DNA of 64,000 nt from contig JAXHNR010000002.1 in assembly GCA_034520215.1 (NCBI GenBank), positions 470,642 to 534,641 of the forward strand. The letters are read 5' to 3'. This document shows positions 14,421 through 63,112 of this stretch, piece after piece (the first letter of the stretch is position 1; each line of letters begins with the position of its first letter). A program made the position numbers and the translations under genes. The stretch is from Candidatus Krumholzibacteriota bacterium. GTDB lineage: Bacteria; Krumholzibacteriota; Krumholzibacteriia; Krumholzibacteriales; WJIX01. Below the pieces are notes generated by a model, which worked only from the letters and a program-made list of their open reading frames with translations, was not told the DNA's origin and ran no database searches.

Positions 14421-14433
14421 TATCTGTTATTTT

Positions 14434-14719
14434 TGGAGTTTCCCCAATTATTACATATAATTTGTATATCCGGCTATTGGCATTGTCAAAATCACTGTCG
14501 ATTTTCCCAGCGAGAAAATCGCAGTTCCCGCTCTCAGACTCGCTCTTTCCCATTTCCTTTGAAGGAAATGGGAAAACCATGCCCGCTCGTCTTCCGAGAG
14601 GGTTTTGCTATGCCAATAGCCGGATAAAAACTAAGTATCAATGCCATTTGTCACTACAGATAATCACCCTGTAACTTTGCCGTTACTAAAATATTCCTAT
14701 GATATTCGTGGAATGTCCA
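14434..14719. mobile_element. Dispersed inverted-repeat element, copy A (complete, subfamily alpha)
   Basis: A 286-bp non-coding element. The left end is TGGAGTTTCCCC (conserved end) and the right end a degraded GTGGAATGTCCA. It is flanked by a direct repeat, CTGTTATTT at 14424-14432 and 14721-14729, consistent with a target-site duplication. Inner inverted repeats of 17 bp lie at 14467-14483 and 14610-14626. The core contains hairpin I at 14499-14521 (8-bp stem, loop CCAGCGA), hairpin II at 14546-14575 (14-bp stem) and a small hairpin III near 14590-14600. Order from the conserved end: I-II-III. There is no coding capacity beyond short chance frames. Confidence 0.85.
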
Positions 14720-14789
14720 ACTGTTATTTCTTTGACAGCACAGGGGAACTTTCGTATTCTTAAAAAAAGTTATTGAAGAAGGAAGTGAT

Positions 14790-19892: not shown

Positions 19893-19908
19893 AATTAGGG
19901 AAACTCCA
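19893..19908 (+). repeat. Isolated end of the dispersed element
   Basis: AATTAGGGAAACTCCA differs by one base from the AATTGGGGAAACTCCA end of the complete copies. No core or inner inverted repeat is recognisable upstream. It stands 14 bases before the TTGACA of the tRNA-Asn promoter, the same distance as at other copies. It may be a decayed element or a promoter-upstream motif in its own right. Confidence 0.55.
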
Positions 19909-19990: not shown

Positions 19991-20066
<76 letters not shown>

Positions 20067-22800: not shown

Positions 22801-22939
22801 CAGGCAAGGATTTCCGTCCCGAAGGGGCAGAAATCCTTGCCCGCTCGCCACTCGGCGAAAATTTTGAAAATATCAATCAGCCGCAAACTTCACGAATCAA
22901 TTAATCTCCTGATTGGTAATAAAGATTGGGGAAACTCCA
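22801..22939. mobile_element. Dispersed element, copy B (partial; conserved right end)
   Basis: The left arm and hairpin I are missing. What remains is a hairpin with a 12-bp stem (GGCAAGGATTTC paired with GAAATCCTTGCC, 22803-22841), hairpin III (CGCCACTCGGCG), the inner repeat TTTTGAAAATATCAATCAGCCGC, a right arm and the conserved end GGGGAAACTCCA at 22928-22939. Core order from the conserved end is III-II. The right arm is of the same type as copy F (51949-52021). The end lies 15 bases before the TTGACA of the feo promoter. Confidence 0.75.
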
Positions 22940-36649: not shown

Positions 36650-36870
36650 GCTGATGAGTGCGGATGATTGATATTTTCAAAATCGTGGTCGATTTCCCGC
36701 CGGCCGAGTAAATAGTACGCTCTACCAACTCGGGCTCGCTCTTTCTGCCCCTTCGGGTCAGAAATCCCTGCCCGCTCGCCACTCGGCGAGGGTTTTTAAA
36801 ATATCAATCATCCACATACTATTACAAATCATCGACTACCTTATAGGTTATAAAAATTGGGGAAACTCCA
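36650..36870. mobile_element. Dispersed element, copy C (left end lost)
   Basis: Subfamily beta. Starts within the left arm (gctgatgagtgcgg), keeps both inner repeats (ATTGATATTTTCAAAA and a slightly mutated partner TTTTTAAAATATCAAT), the core with a decayed hairpin I and hairpin III of type CGCC-ACTC-GGCG, and a full right arm ending GGGGAAACTCCA at 36859-36870. Order from the conserved end: III-II-I, as in copy D. It lies between the gdhA terminator and a PAS kinase gene. The distance to a weak TTATCT is 13 bases. Confidence 0.75.
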
Positions 36871-38333: not shown

Positions 38334-38388
38334 CTGAAAATTCGCCTGGGATTCTCATACTAAATATAGATTCATATTATCAAATTGC

Positions 38389-38692
38389 AGGAATTCCCCC
38401 AAAAATCCGGCAAGTATTTTACTAACATTTCGAGATACAATAAGTTATCAGGATTGGTAAGTGGAATAGGGTTTTCATTGCTGATGAGTGCGGATGATTG
38501 ATATTTTCAAAATCGTTGTCGGTTTCCCCGGCGAGGAAACCGCAACTCCCGCCTCGGGCTCGCTCTTTCTGCCCCTTCGGGCCAGAAATCCTTGCCCGCT
38601 CGCCCTCCGGAGGGTTTTGAAAATATCAATCATCCGCATACTATTATAAATCATCGACTACCTTATAGGTTATAAAAATTGGGGAAACTCTA
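38389..38692. mobile_element. Dispersed element, copy D (complete, subfamily beta)
   Basis: 304 bp. The left end AGGAATTCCCCC is degraded and the right end GGGGAAACTCTA conserved. Flanking direct repeats ATCAAATTG lie at 38379-38387 and 38694-38702. Inner inverted repeats are perfect over 24 bp (38489-38512 and 38615-38638). Hairpin I at 38520-38542 has a perfect 8-bp stem (CGGTTTCC/GGAAACCG, loop CCGGCGA), hairpin II follows near 38568-38590, and hairpin III is the palindrome CCCTCCGGAGGG. The arms match copy E in reverse, but the core is in the same orientation as in E. Confidence 0.85.
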
Positions 38693-41824: not shown

Positions 41825-41848
41825 GGGGAAACTCCAGATATTATTTAT

Positions 41849-42154
41849 TGGAGTTTCCCCAATTTTTATAACCTATAAGGTAGTCGATGATTTGTAACAG
41901 TATGCGGCTGATTGATATTTTCAAAATCGTGGTCGATTTCCCCGGCGAGGTAATCGTACGCTCTGCGCCTCGGGCTCGCTCTTTCTGCCCCTTCGGGCCA
42001 GAAATCCTTGCCCGCTCGCCCTCCGGAGGGTTTTGAAAATATCAATCAGCCGCACTCATCAGCAATAAAAACCCTATTCCACTTATCAATTCTGATAAAT
42101 GGTTGTATCTCGAAATGTTTGTAAAATACTTGCCTGATTTTCGGGGGAACTCCA
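41849..42154. mobile_element. Dispersed element, copy E (complete, subfamily beta)
   Basis: 306 bp. Ends TGGAGTTTCCCC (41849-41860) and GGGGAACTCCA (to 42154) are inverted repeats. Exact 12-bp direct repeats GATATTATTTAT flank it at 41837-41848 and 42155-42166, the best target-site duplication of the family. Inner inverted repeats are perfect over 24 bp (41903-41926 and 42031-42054). Hairpin I lies at 41934-41956 (loop CCGGCGA, one mismatch) and hairpin III is CCCTCCGGAGGG. Order from the conserved left end: I-II-III. It separates the divergent msrAB and small membrane protein genes. Confidence 0.88.
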
Positions 42155-42168
42155 GATATTATTTATAA

Positions 42169-47683: not shown

Positions 47684-47865
47684 CTTAAAGGACTCTTGGT
47701 GAGCGCTGTCCTTAAGTATCGCAATAAAGGGGCTGAAAGTAGATTGAAACAATAATAATATAGGTGTATAAATTTATCAGGCGGTAAAGGTCAAGTAAAA
47801 GAGTGAAAAGAGAATGTTCTGCTGTTCGAGTACAGTCTTTTTTTCATAAATGGAAAGGCCGGTTG

Positions 47866-50800
47866 ATGGAAAGTAAAGATAGTTTTACGATCGAAGGAAA
47901 ATACGATATCTCCGATACGGTCAATATTGACCGTCTCGAAGATATTCTGAAGAGCTTTGCCCGGGCGAACGGGTATTCATGCGAGCTTTACTCAAACCCC
48001 GATTGCCAACTTCTGATCAGCACGGGTATGCCTGTTATATGCGGCGGCTTCCACCGGAAATATTCGGAATCCGGAGAAAAATGCAGAAAGAGCAATCTCA
48101 AACTGAATAAAAAAATCAAAAAGGGGAAGAAAGCTGTAATAAGCAGATGCGATAACGGTTTGATCAGAGGTCAAGCCCCGATAGTGATAAACGGGGTGTA
48201 TCTGGCAGATTTGATTATCGGCCCGGTTCTGTTTGAAAAACCGGAGCCGGAATGGTTCAGAAAACAGGCGAAAAATTACGGGTATGACTCGGAAAAATAC
48301 CTCGAGACGCTTGAAGAGGTTAAGGTTGTGAAAGAGGAAGATTTTCGCGAATCTCTATCTTTCCTGAGGGAGATAATTGTAATACTGGCAGAGCGGGGAT
48401 TGTCTGAAATCCAGAGTTCTCTGAAGGTACGGGAAGCGCAAGAGAGTAAGAATAATCTTTATACTACCCTCCGTTCGATCGGTGAGGCTGTTATTTCCAC
48501 CGACATGGAAGGGCGAATAGCACATATGAACCCTGTCTCGGAAAATCTGACAGGATGGAGTATAGAAGAGGCGAGAGGGAAGCAGCTCACGGAAGTTTTC
48601 CATATTGTTAATTCCAGGACAGAGGAAAAGGCGCCCAACCCGGTTGATAAAGTTCTTAAAGAAGGGGTGGTAGTGGGGCTGGCCAACCACACAAAATTAA
48701 TAGCCGGCGATGGCAAGGAGTTCCAGATAGCAGATTCTGCATCGCCGATAAGAGACGAGAACGGGAATATAACAGGAGTAGTTCTCGTATTCAGAGATGT
48801 TACGGATGAATATAAGAAAAGCCAGCAGCTTAAAGAAAACCTGGAGCTTCTCTCCGCCACTTTTCAAAGCATTCAGGATGGAGTGAGTGTTCTCGAAAGG
48901 GATCTGACCATAAGTTACGTTAACCCGGTTATGGAGAAGTGGTACGGGGCTAAAATGCCTCTGGTTGGAGGTAAGTGTTATTTCTGTTATCACGGCAGGG
49001 ATAATCCATGTGAACCGTGCCCTTCCCTGAGGTGCATGGAAACGGGAAAAAAGGAATTCGATATTGTCCCCGGGCCCCCGGAGCCCGATTCACCCGTTGA
49101 GTGGATTGAATTGTACAGTTATCCGATCATAGATGAGGAAACTGGAAAGGTGTCCGGAGTGGTAGAGTTTGTCCGAGATATTACCAAACAGAAGAGGACT
49201 CGGGATAATTTGAGCCGCAGCAAGAAGATACTTGCCAGAACAGAGCGCATCGCGAATGTCGGCAGCTGGGAATGGGATATTGCCGGGGACAGCGTTACCT
49301 GGTCAGATGAACTTTTCAGTATTTTCAATATTGATCCGGAAGAAGAACCGCCCAGCTGGAAGGAACATCCGTCTCTGTATCATCCGGACGATATGGAGCT
49401 GCTGAAACGCGCGGTTGAAAAAGCTGTATCGGAAGGTGTTCCCTATGAACTGGAGCTTCGAGCCCTTCCGAGAGGGGGCGGAACCAGGATTTGCCTGTCC
49501 CGCGGATTCCCCGACACGGATTCGGATGGCAATGTTTTTCGTCTTTACGGATCGTTTCAGGATATTACAGAGCTGAAGATAACCAAGCAGAAGCTGAGGA
49601 AAAGCCGGGATAACCTCGAAACCACTCTTAATTCCATAGGTGATGCTGTTATTTCCACCGACACGGAAGGGCGAATAGCGCATATGAACCCTGTAGCGGA
49701 AAATCTGACGGGATGGAGTATAGAAGAGGCGAGGGGTAAACAGCTCACGGAAGTTTTCCATATCGTTAATTCCAGGACAGAGGAAAAGGCGCCCAACCCG
49801 GTTGATAAGGTTCTTAAGGAGGGGGTGGTAGTGGGGCTGGCAAACCACACAAAATTAATAGCCGGCGACGGTAAGGAATACCAGATAGCCGACTCCGGGT
49901 CGCCCATCAGAAACACTGAAGGTGAAACTACGGGAGTGGTTCTCGTATTCAGAGATGTTACCGAAAAATACAGGATAAGGGAAGAGCTGCGCCGCAGCGA
50001 GGAGCTGTTAAGTCTTGCCATGTCAATAAAGAATGAAGGCATTTGGGACTGGGACTTAACCACCGATGATGTGTACTTCGATCCCCGGTACTACAAGATG
50101 GCTGGATACCGGGTGGATGAATTCCCCCCGCGCCTGGATGAGTTTAAAAAAAGGGTTCACCCTGATGATATAGAATATGTAATGAACCGGGCCAGTGAGC
50201 ATCTGGAAGGAAAGATAGACAACTTTAATGTGGAGTTCCGATTTAAGAGAAAGGATGGAGGCTGGATGTGGATTCAGGGGAGAGGCATGGTAGTTGAGCG
50301 GGATGAAAAAGGATCCCCAACCCGCTTCGTCGGAACCCATACTGATATAACGGAACGAAAATATGCCGAGGAGGCGCTCAAGGAGAGTGAAGAAAAGTAC
50401 AGAACCCTTGTTTCCTCGATGAGTGATATGATATTCCTGCTCGACTGTGATGATCGGTTTCAGGAAATACACTCTAAACCGGGTAATGTCCTTTTAGCGG
50501 AGCCGGAAGAATTTCTGGGAAAGAGGATTCAAGAGGTAATGCCATCTTCTATAATCGATATGTATGAGAAATCAGCTGAGGAAGTAAGAAGAAGCGGCGA
50601 AACGCGGAGATTCGAATACCCTCTCAGAATAGGGGACAGGGATATGTGGTTCCTGGCAACCTTGGATCTTCATAAAGACGAAGAGAGTGTGGTCGCCGAT
50701 ATACGCGATATAACCGAGCGTAAGGAGGCGCAGGAGGCACTTCAGAGGATGCAGAAGCTGGAGAGTGTAGGTACACTGGCAGGAGGAATAGCGCATGACT

Positions 50801-51870
50801 TCAACAATATACTTACCGGGGTATACGGCAATATCGAACTTGCCAGGCTGGAGCTGTCCGAGGATCATCAATCGTATAAGCATATTGAGACCGCCCATAA
50901 ATCGCTGGAGAGGGCCAGGCACCTGACCAAACAGCTTCTGACTTTTGCCAGGGGAGGAGAGCCGCTGCTGGAATCTGTTAATATTAAGGAGCTTGTGCGG
51001 GATTCGGTTCGATTCAACCTCAGCGGGAGCAGTATTGAAGCGAGTTTGAACCTGCCGGACGATCTGTGGATGGTTAAAGCGGACAGAGGACAGATGAGCC
51101 ACGTGTTGGCAAATCTTATTATTAACGCGAAGGAAGCGATGTCGATGGGCGGGGTTATTCACATAGAAGCGGAAAATGTTGAAGAAGCAGGAGGAGAATG
51201 CGCTTCCCGTTTATCAGGGGATTATGTCATGATTACCGTAAGGGATGAAGGTGTCGGAATTCCCGAAAAGTTTCTCGGGAGTGTGTTCGACCCCTATTTT
51301 ACCACAAAAAAGGCGGGAAGTGGCCTGGGACTGTCGATAGCTTACAGTATAATAAACAAACATGACGGGCATATCAGCGTTCAATCCGAACCGGGAAAGG
51401 GCGCTGCTTTTGCCCTGTTTCTCCCGGCCGAAAAGTCTTCCGAAATAGAGGGAAAAGAAGAAGCGGAGACAGACAGAAAACCCTCAAAAAATCTGGGGGA
51501 GGTGCTTCTGATGGATGACGAGAAGGCGGTGAGGGAGGTTTCAGCCAGGATGCTGAAAGCAATCGGGTATAATACCGATTTGGCTGTTAACGGGGAGGAA
51601 GCGCTCGAAAAGTATATCTCGGCATTGAAGAAAGGCAATCCATTTGACGTGGTTATCGCGGATCTGACAGTCCCCGGCGGAATGGGCGGCAAAGAACTGA
51701 GCGAAAAGATTCTCACGGCAGATCCGAACGCGAAAGTTATAGTTATAAGCGGTTATTCAACCGATCCGGTTATGGCCGGTTACACTGATTACGGGTTTGC
51801 GGGCCGAATCGTAAAGCCGTTCGAGATAAAAGATTTAAGGCGTGAGATTACGCGTGTAATAAAAGAGTGA
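47866..51870 (+). CDS. PocR-PAS hybrid histidine kinase
   Basis: 1334 residues, no membrane helix. Order: a PocR ligand-binding domain (14-170; ICGGFHRKYSESGEKCRKSN, VINGVYLADLIIGPVLF), then six PAS domains to about 955. HisKA (TLAGGIAHDFNNILTGVYGNIELA), HATPase (N box NLIINAKEAM, G1 DEGVGIPE, G2 GSGLGLSIAYSII) and a C-terminal REC (VLLMDDEK...VIADLTVPGGMGG) follow. The third PAS has a Cys cluster (CYFCYHGRDNPCEPCPSLRC). PAS 1 and PAS 4 are nearly identical. The ATG at 47866 follows GGAAAGG; a GTG at 47803 is in frame. PocR domains are thought to bind small hydrocarbon derivatives; the ligand here is unknown. Confidence 0.9.
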   Translation: MESKDSFTIEGKYDISDTVNIDRLEDILKSFARANGYSCELYSNPDCQLLISTGMPVICGGFHRKYSESGEKCRKSNLKLNKKIKKGKKAVISRCDNGLIRGQAPIVINGVYLADLIIGPVLFEKPEPEWFRKQAKNYGYDSEKYLETLEEVKVVKEEDFRESLSFLREIIVILAERGLSEIQSSLKVREAQESKNNLYTTLRSIGEAVISTDMEGRIAHMNPVSENLTGWSIEEARGKQLTEVFHIVNSRTEEKAPNPVDKVLKEGVVVGLANHTKLIAGDGKEFQIADSASPIRDENGNITGVVLVFRDVTDEYKKSQQLKENLELLSATFQSIQDGVSVLERDLTISYVNPVMEKWYGAKMPLVGGKCYFCYHGRDNPCEPCPSLRCMETGKKEFDIVPGPPEPDSPVEWIELYSYPIIDEETGKVSGVVEFVRDITKQKRTRDNLSRSKKILARTERIANVGSWEWDIAGDSVTWSDELFSIFNIDPEEEPPSWKEHPSLYHPDDMELLKRAVEKAVSEGVPYELELRALPRGGGTRICLSRGFPDTDSDGNVFRLYGSFQDITELKITKQKLRKSRDNLETTLNSIGDAVISTDTEGRIAHMNPVAENLTGWSIEEARGKQLTEVFHIVNSRTEEKAPNPVDKVLKEGVVVGLANHTKLIAGDGKEYQIADSGSPIRNTEGETTGVVLVFRDVTEKYRIREELRRSEELLSLAMSIKNEGIWDWDLTTDDVYFDPRYYKMAGYRVDEFPPRLDEFKKRVHPDDIEYVMNRASEHLEGKIDNFNVEFRFKRKDGGWMWIQGRGMVVERDEKGSPTRFVGTHTDITERKYAEEALKESEEKYRTLVSSMSDMIFLLDCDDRFQEIHSKPGNVLLAEPEEFLGKRIQEVMPSSIIDMYEKSAEEVRRSGETRRFEYPLRIGDRDMWFLATLDLHKDEESVVADIRDITERKEAQEALQRMQKLESVGTLAGGIAHDFNNILTGVYGNIELARLELSEDHQSYKHIETAHKSLERARHLTKQLLTFARGGEPLLESVNIKELVRDSVRFNLSGSSIEASLNLPDDLWMVKADRGQMSHVLANLIINAKEAMSMGGVIHIEAENVEEAGGECASRLSGDYVMITVRDEGVGIPEKFLGSVFDPYFTTKKAGSGLGLSIAYSIINKHDGHISVQSEPGKGAAFALFLPAEKSSEIEGKEEAETDRKPSKNLGEVLLMDDEKAVREVSARMLKAIGYNTDLAVNGEEALEKYISALKKGNPFDVVIADLTVPGGMGGKELSEKILTADPNAKVIVISGYSTDPVMAGYTDYGFAGRIVKPFEIKDLRREITRVIKE
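48487..48803 (+). repeat. PAS-coding direct repeat, first copy
   Basis: About 317 bases that recur 1158 bases downstream (49645-49961) without gaps and with high identity. It encodes the first PAS domain of the hybrid kinase. The middle (EARGKQLTEVFHIVNSRTEE onward) is identical in protein for about 65 residues. Confidence 0.85.
49645..49961 (+). repeat. PAS-coding direct repeat, second copy
   Basis: Second copy of the 317-base segment, encoding the fourth PAS domain of the same protein. Differences lie mostly near the two ends, and many are silent. A recent internal duplication or gene conversion explains this better than old paralogy, because the other PAS domains of the protein are highly diverged. 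Confidence 0.85.
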
Positions 51871-51948
51871 TCGAATGCAGGAATGCGGGGGGCAACAGGA
51901 ACAGGAAGAATAAGTGTCACCTTCCCTGTTTTAATCTTTTCCGAAGGT

Positions 51949-52021
51949 GATAATATTAATCAGCCGCGAACTTCAAGAATTAATTAATCTCCTGATTTGT
52001 AATAAAAATTGGAAAACTCCA
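51949..52021. mobile_element. Dispersed element, copy F (right arm only)
   Basis: Starts in an inner-repeat remnant (AATATTAATCAGCCGC), followed by an arm (AACTTCAAGAATTAATTAATCTCCTG) nearly identical to that of copy B, and ends TTGGAAAACTCCA at 52009-52021. Core and other arm are lost. TTGACA lies 14 bases further on, inside an inverted repeat CTTGA-CAA-TCAAG (52035-52047); I see no good -10 for it. Confidence 0.65.
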
Positions 52022-62380: not shown

Positions 62381-62393
62381 ACATAATTTGTTT

Positions 62394-62674
62394 TGGAGTT
62401 TCCCCAATTTTTTACATTCCTTTGTATATCCGGCTATTGTTATTTCAAAACCCTCTCGGAAGACGAGCGGGCATGGTTTTCCCATTTCCCTTAGGGAAAT
62501 GGGAAAGAGCGAGTCTGAGAGCGGGAGACGCTATTTCCTCGCAGGGGAAATAGACGGCGTTTTTGACAATACCAATAGCCGGATAGAAACTAAATATCAA
62601 TTCCACTTATCAATATGGGTAATTACTTGATAGTTATGTTACTAAAATATTGCCCTGATTTCGAGGAATGTCCT
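62394..62674. mobile_element. Dispersed element, copy G (complete, subfamily alpha)
   Basis: 281 bp. Left end TGGAGTTTCCCC conserved, right end GAGGAATGTCCT degraded. Flanking direct repeats TAATTTGTTT are exact at 62384-62393 and 62676-62685. The arms match copy A in the same orientation (TATATCCGGCTATTG...CAATAGCCGGATA). The core is the reverse complement of A's core: hairpin III first, hairpin II at 62478-62506, hairpin I at 62531-62553 (CTATTTCC/GGAAATAG). The right flanking repeat overlaps the stop codon of arfB. Confidence 0.87.
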
Positions 62675-62683
62675 GTAATTTGT

Positions 62684-63112
62684 TTATTTTTCTCTGGAGG
62701 GGTCTACTCCGGATCGAAGCTTTTTGAGTCTCGCGCGGCGCTTTTTGGTTTCCAGTCTTCGCTCTTTTGCCGATCTGGGCTTACGAGTCTTTTTTCGCCG
62801 GGCAGACCGCTTGAGAGCGTTTTGAAGGAGAGAAACAAAGTGTTCCACGGCCGCCTTGCGATTCTCACTTTGCGACCTGTGCTTCTGTGATGAGACTCGG
62901 AGAATACCCTCCTTGTTGATTCTGCCCTTAAGCTTCTTTATGATCCGGTTTTTTTGTCTTTCGGAAAGAGCCCGTGAAGCGGCAACGTCAAAAAGGAGTG
63001 TGACTTTCGTGTTCACTCTGTCCACATTCTGACCGCCCGGTTTGCTGCTTGTTGAAAACCTGAATGCTGTTTCGCTTTCAGGGACAGCAACTCTTCTGTT
63101 GATTTTTAACAT
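62684..63112 (-). CDS. arfB: Peptidyl-tRNA hydrolase ArfB-like ribosome rescue factor
   Basis: 142 residues. The GGQ domain FRFSTSSKPGGQNVDRVNTKVTLLFDV aligns with ArfB (YaeJ), whose GGQ loop frees stalled peptides. SERQKNRIIKKLKGRINKEGILRVSSQKHRSQSENRKAAVEHFVSLLQ is the rest of the domain. The basic, Lys/Arg-rich tail would enter the empty mRNA channel. It has no codon-recognition domain, so it is not RF1/RF2. A TTG or ATG near 63112 starts it (gtaagagATG). The stop codon overlaps the target repeat of element G. Confidence 0.92.
   Translation of the reverse strand: MLKINRRVAVPESETAFRFSTSSKPGGQNVDRVNTKVTLLFDVAASRALSERQKNRIIKKLKGRINKEGILRVSSQKHRSQSENRKAAVEHFVSLLQNALKRSARRKKTRKPRSAKERRLETKKRRARLKKLRSGVDPSREK

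Follow-up and report, generated by a model that had tools for sequence, protein, structure and literature searches.

The window, by which we mean the whole 64,000-nucleotide stretch of Candidatus Krumholzibacteriota DNA that was analysed, carries copies A to G of a small element whose parts are listed in Table 1. A full copy consists of an L arm, an inner inverted repeat, a core of ~110–130 bp with three hairpins, a second inner inverted repeat, and an R arm. Since copies B and F are truncated and most of the R arm is missing from copy C, both arms can be compared within the window only for A, D, E, and G. The inner inverted repeats, which the original prediction had put at up to 24 perfect bases, do occur as perfect 24-mers in copies D and E; the longest perfect run has a median of 23–24 bases in subfamily beta and 18 in subfamily alpha, and the repeat sequence is not common to alpha, beta, and the third subfamily, gamma. 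The strong folding of the element is accounted for by its inverted repeats, and an Rfam search of the 64-kb window, in which tRNA alone was matched, assigned it to no known RNA family.

Table 1. Element copies and associated features in the window
Feature	Position	Strand	Remark
Copy A, complete alpha-type MITE	14434..14720	+	Core forward (hairpin I adjoins L end); refined border
Copy A, L arm with terminal repeat TGGAGTTTCCCCAATT	14434..14466	+	111 genome-wide matches
Copy A, left inner inverted repeat TATCCGGCTATTGGCATT	14467..14484	+	
Copy A, core, three hairpins	14485..14609	+	DNA fold z −9.3
Copy A, right inner inverted repeat ATGCCAATAGCCGGATA	14610..14626	+	
Copy A, R arm, terminus GGAATGTCCAA	14627..14720	+	
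Copy A, target duplication CTGTTATTT	14424-14432 / 14721-14729		Perfect, 9 bp
Promoter-like TTGACA-N17-TATTCT	14732..14760	+	11 bp beyond R end of A
Copy B, truncated, beta-like	22801..22939	-	L end at 22939; core reversed
Copy C, beta	36650..36870	-	L end at 36870; core reversed; most of R arm missing
Copy D, complete beta	38388..38692	-	Core reversed, identical to forward core of C1:833453
Copy E, complete beta	41849..42155	+	Core forward
Copy F, truncated	51945..52021	-	L-arm remnant
Copy G, complete alpha-type MITE	62394..62675	+	Core reversed; refined border
Copy G, core	62440..62572	-	Reverse complement of A core (inverted-repeat pairing)
Copy G, target duplication TAATTTGTTT	62384-62393 / 62676-62685		Perfect

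Further repeats were noted in the window. A gamma-type remnant (TGGAGTTTCCCTAATTTTTAAATT..., GATTGAATTCGTCAAAACTACGG) lies at 19908 on the minus strand, beside tRNA-Asn at 19991. Directly ahead of copy E, at 41825-41849, is a sequence that resembles an element end (GGGGAAACTCCAGATATTATTTAT), 18 bases of which (ACTCCAGATATTATTTAT) are found again at the R end of E; copy E may have inserted next to an older element end. A 300-nt direct repeat, 88% identical (48452-48751 and 49610-49909), is contained within an open frame of 1355 amino acids (47803-51870).

The source genome comprises 2.6 Mb in two contigs, C1 and C2; the best protein match among named genomes was to a Candidatus Krumholzibacteriota MAG, which by itself makes this phylum likely. 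The number of copies in the source genome was determined by a pattern scan that allowed up to two mismatches to the L end TGGAGTTTCCCCAATT, and copies were extracted with their flanks. The scan returned 111 matches, compared with 2 for a reversed-pattern control. The copies form the two large subfamilies alpha and beta and the smaller gamma, and the core is homologous in all of them. The element is ~300 bp long, with the terminus TGGAGTTTCCCC on one side and GGGGAACTCCA or GGGGAATGTCCTG on the opposite side (the end pair can also be given as TGGAGTTTCCCC and CAGGACTTTCCCC). Target duplications of 8–14 bp (mode 9–10) flank 42 of 79 core-bearing copies, and duplications were found at 39 of 105 L ends compared with 0 of 104 when the flanks were swapped. 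Given these ends, the duplications, and the lack of any gene inside, we conclude that the element is a dispersed non-autonomous transposon, i.e. a MITE, a class described by a length of 50–500 bp, terminal inverted repeats, target-site duplication, and the lack of a transposase gene, each of which was found here.

The element was absent from 80 of 80 loci of named genomes, and a search of plasmids gave no match; two exact matches to its ends in phage-like viral contigs were set aside as chance, as the rest of the element was missing from them. An empty orthologous site near copy C was sought in the genomes G002 to G004, where synteny was lost past the first gene. We noted that ~13 beta L arms in the source genome are core-less, as is copy F, with breakpoints that differ; the L end seems to survive more often than the distal portion does. 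Core-less MITEs of ~100–130 bp, with ends and a promoter-side motif of the family type, were seen at C1:579311-579432 and at three loci (L191, L192, and L194) in congeners.

The flanks of the copies revealed where the element inserts. The motif TCAA occurs at −16 to −20 beyond the L end in 62 of 105 flanks, where ~2 would be expected, and flanks aligned on TCAA display a −10 box 17 bases further on, giving TTGACA-N17-TATAAT directed outwards from the element. A −10 box matching at least five of six positions at the correct spacing was present in 21 of 48 flanks, compared with 3% of all TCAA sites. In most cases, 12–16 bp separate the element end from the −35 hexamer. Among the 31 copies without the left motif, 11 (including A and E) have TTGA 8–19 bp beyond the R end. 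Further, the left-side promoter motif is also found in the related genome G004 and in the short core-less relatives of congeners. We conclude that the element inserts, in an oriented manner, at a fixed distance from the −35 box of sigma70-type promoters, and that most copies are placed just upstream of gene promoters.

This habit has a counterpart among the Mutator-type transposases of TnGBS, ISLre2, and ISKra4, which direct insertion 15–17 bp upstream of sigmaA promoters and in which the orientation of insertion is set by unequal ends, near-equal ends inserting both ways (PMC3942029). Common to these elements (p-MULT 3/4) and the family described here is the fixed distance upstream of the −35 box (15–17 bp there, 12–16 bp here), and insertion both ways also seems to occur here for copies with L-like R ends. 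The present family differs in being non-autonomous, ~300 bp long, and present in ~110 copies, and its direct repeats (8–14 bp) are somewhat longer than the 8–9 bp of p-MULT. The target habit matches the Mutator type as a likeness in behaviour, not as membership, and by this analogy we infer a Mutator-type transposase that acts on the ends in trans. A search of the source genome with the ISKra4 model returned nothing, as did one with the ISLre2 model, which was run without a positive control; a PF01609 search gave a weak fragment at most and no parent. A match in G004, whose sequence resembles that of IS256-type transposases, was rejected as the parent since it has no matching ends. The genes inspected beside core-less L ends for an autonomous parent resemble ordinary host genes.

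Within its arms, the core lies in either orientation. As the original prediction had held, copies A and G have arms in the same orientation, which pair as direct repeats, and cores that pair as inverted repeats (85–87% complementary over 80–91 nt in a repeat search of the window); conversely, the arms of D and E are opposed (the L end being on the minus strand in D and on the plus strand in E) and their cores lie on the same strand. The predicted order of the hairpins was also recovered from strand markers in the core, with A and E forward and B, C, D, and G reversed. Genome-wide, alpha arms enclose 20 reversed and 7 forward cores, and beta arms enclose 41 forward cores and 3 reversed ones with both repeats readable, besides 2 truncated reversed copies. 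The original prediction had proposed comparing orientations in related genomes, and in G004 nine of nine copies are forward, which is why we regard forward as probably the ancestral orientation. We note that the reversed beta copies (B, C, D, C2:242973, and C2:803851) are all five located on C2, three of them within 16 kb, and that forward beta copies are mostly on C1.

Several core alleles exist in both orientations. The alpha allele with a beta-type hairpin II is forward at C1:85602 and reversed at C1:91026, where the cores are 0.008 and the L arms 0.20 apart. For the standard alpha core, C1:230315 has the forward state and C1:1377556 the reversed one; for the alpha core with the TTTTTTAGGTAC end, C1:1237307 is forward, whereas C2:287978 and C1:330515 are reversed. 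In beta, the reversed core of copy D is 100% identical to the forward core of C1:833453, the arms of the two being 7–10% apart. The occurrence of at least three alpha alleles and one identical beta core in both orientations indicates that core reversal has recurred, in agreement with the earlier claim of at least two independent flips. Arm trees need 4 and 2 orientation changes with weak support, and their starred branches force one per subfamily; since these trees are too short and poorly resolved, we base the count of events on the shared core alleles.

The alternative that one or two ancient flips sufficed, with later reversed copies being their descendants by transposition and the shared alleles arising by ordinary gene conversion, draws on the same trees, which force no more than one change, and on the L arms, which are near-uniform in most reversed alpha copies. 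Further, orientation in alpha is associated with the type of L arm (p = 0.009), although both L-arm types occur with both orientations in all four combinations, and this association implies that some reversed copies are copies of a common ancestor. However, both orientations are represented among the copies of several different core alleles and of the identical beta core, and in-register conversion between opposed copies would need inverted-repeat pairing, which is itself a reversal event. We therefore consider so small a number of flips unlikely, and return to recurrent reversal.

Reversal is accompanied by a shuffling of the parts of the element. Pairwise distances of the L arm, the R arm, and the core are uncorrelated in both alpha and beta (Mantel r about 0), and those of the two core halves are nearly uncorrelated too. 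Divided into blocks, the beta copies have few alleles per block in nearly all combinations, giving 37 haplotypes in 44 copies. Most pairs of beta blocks are in linkage equilibrium, the exceptions being adjacent blocks at hairpin I and its surroundings, and one site in the inner repeats. At the latter site, the two repeat halves are fully coupled (V = 1.0) and match in 40 of the 40 copies readable on both sides, and the coupled pair is independent of all other blocks. This suggests that, inside an element, one repeat half serves as the template for the other, through the same contact as would invert the core; one-sided variants occur at other positions of the inner repeats, and such coupling is thus not universal. 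Chimeras tell of exchange between copies: C1:581454 has an alpha L arm at one end and a beta L arm at the other, joined at the inner repeat, and in C2:172901 the left repeat is beta and the right repeat gamma. As the arms and the core halves assort independently and the breakpoints of the chimeras fall either inside the core or at an inner repeat, the inverted repeats around the core act as the points of exchange, both within a copy (turning the core) and between copies (swapping it). Because the two arms and the core are also reassorted among copies, a share of the reversals may be owed to exchange between copies rather than to flips in place.

Overall, we think it probable that this is a MITE family with ends moved in trans, in which exchange at the inner repeats turns and swaps the cores as a rare by-product and not as a regulated switch. 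A transposase acting in trans would insert a copy beside the −35 box of a sigma70-type promoter, and the inner inverted repeats of the placed copy (18–24 perfect bases) would then pair during repair or replication. Exchange between both repeats of one copy would turn the core, and exchange with another copy would replace it in either orientation and give rise to mosaics, in each case presumably by RecA recombination or template switching. Turned copies could then transpose and multiply, as the 20 reversed copies of alpha would have done. The duplications around reversed copies are intact and these copies have increased in number, which indicates that orientation is inherited through transposition.

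The core could instead be an independent mobile cassette that enters inverted-repeat loops either way, in which case opposite orientations would be separate insertions and not inversions. This idea takes its appeal from two arm-less cores in G004, one (L229, the same as L090) inside the 17-bp inverted repeat AAGCAGGTAATGCTCAA and the other (L236, the same as L094) inside a different one, GTTC(T/C)GTATTGTCAAAACC; the enclosing repeats are locus-specific, unrelated, and 17–19 bp long. It could also account for the core-less MITEs with family ends in congeners and at C1:579311-579432. However, arm-less cores number just two, no empty inner-repeat palindrome was recognised in the source genome, and forward and reversed cores are enclosed by identical inner repeats, with the adjacent asymmetric bases turning with the core, as inversion predicts. 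We consider the cassette quite improbable as an account of the opposite orientations, and put no more trust in a combined version, in which a core cassette hitch-hiked inside a promoter-targeting MITE whose copies serve as a pool for free recombination of cores and arms. The arm-less cores would be either a cassette entering such repeats or what is left of other elements that shared this core; should they be a cassette that seeks inverted-repeat loops, they would represent a novel type of small mobile element.

The original prediction had seen a potential switch in the element. Such a phase-variation switch, in which a dedicated site-specific recombinase would turn the core and so act on the adjoining promoter, is very unlikely despite an inverton-like anatomy (perfect inverted repeats of 18–24 bp around ~130 bp, beside promoters). 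If the core switched freely, its two orientations should become about equally common, yet they are strongly skewed in beta (41:5, p = 4e-8), in alpha (7:20, p = 0.02), and in G004 (9:0), and they are kept through transposition. Consensus scans of copies A, G, and E gave no clear excess of promoters over shuffles, none facing out of the core, and no terminator-like site. Further, the repeat sequence varies among alpha, beta, and gamma, and the cores themselves, not their orientation alone, are swapped between copies. All of these observations are compatible with inversion at low frequency in a living population. Under the reading that we favour, exchange at the inner repeats, core reversal is probably a rare accident rather than a gene switch.

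The family offers ~70 natural replicates, in one genome, of a short inverted-repeat segment that has been turned and swapped, and from these the path of recombination at repeats of 18–24 bp can be read in the sequence. Moreover, the habit of inserting upstream of promoters, so far described for TnGBS, ISLre2, and ISKra4, seems here to be that of a large MITE family, which puts similar DNA next to many promoters. Recombination between inverted repeats also turns the middle of foldback transposons and Tn10-like isomers; here, the repeats are only 18–24 bp long and are internal, not terminal. Correia elements of Neisseria, for which inversion of the element has been reported, and other bacterial MITEs are likewise small, dispersed, intergenic, equipped with terminal repeats, and found upstream of genes (PMC10969869). 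Compared by description with the Correia elements, the family here differs in that the core alone turns within the arms, in that cores and arms shuffle, and in its ends, target, and host. Invertons, i.e. phase-variable invertible promoters (PMC11892184), share with it a segment between inverted repeats that occurs in both orientations, whereas here the orientations were compared across many copies, and the consensus scans gave no clear excess of promoters in the segment. Finally, the mosaics of REP, BIME, and REPIN sequences (PMC2817692, PMC3116915) likewise combine palindromic units in alternating orientations, but the family here does not consist of short REP palindromes, and a DDE-type transposon, rather than the REP-associated tyrosine transposases, is suggested by its ends, its target duplications, and its choice of promoters as targets.
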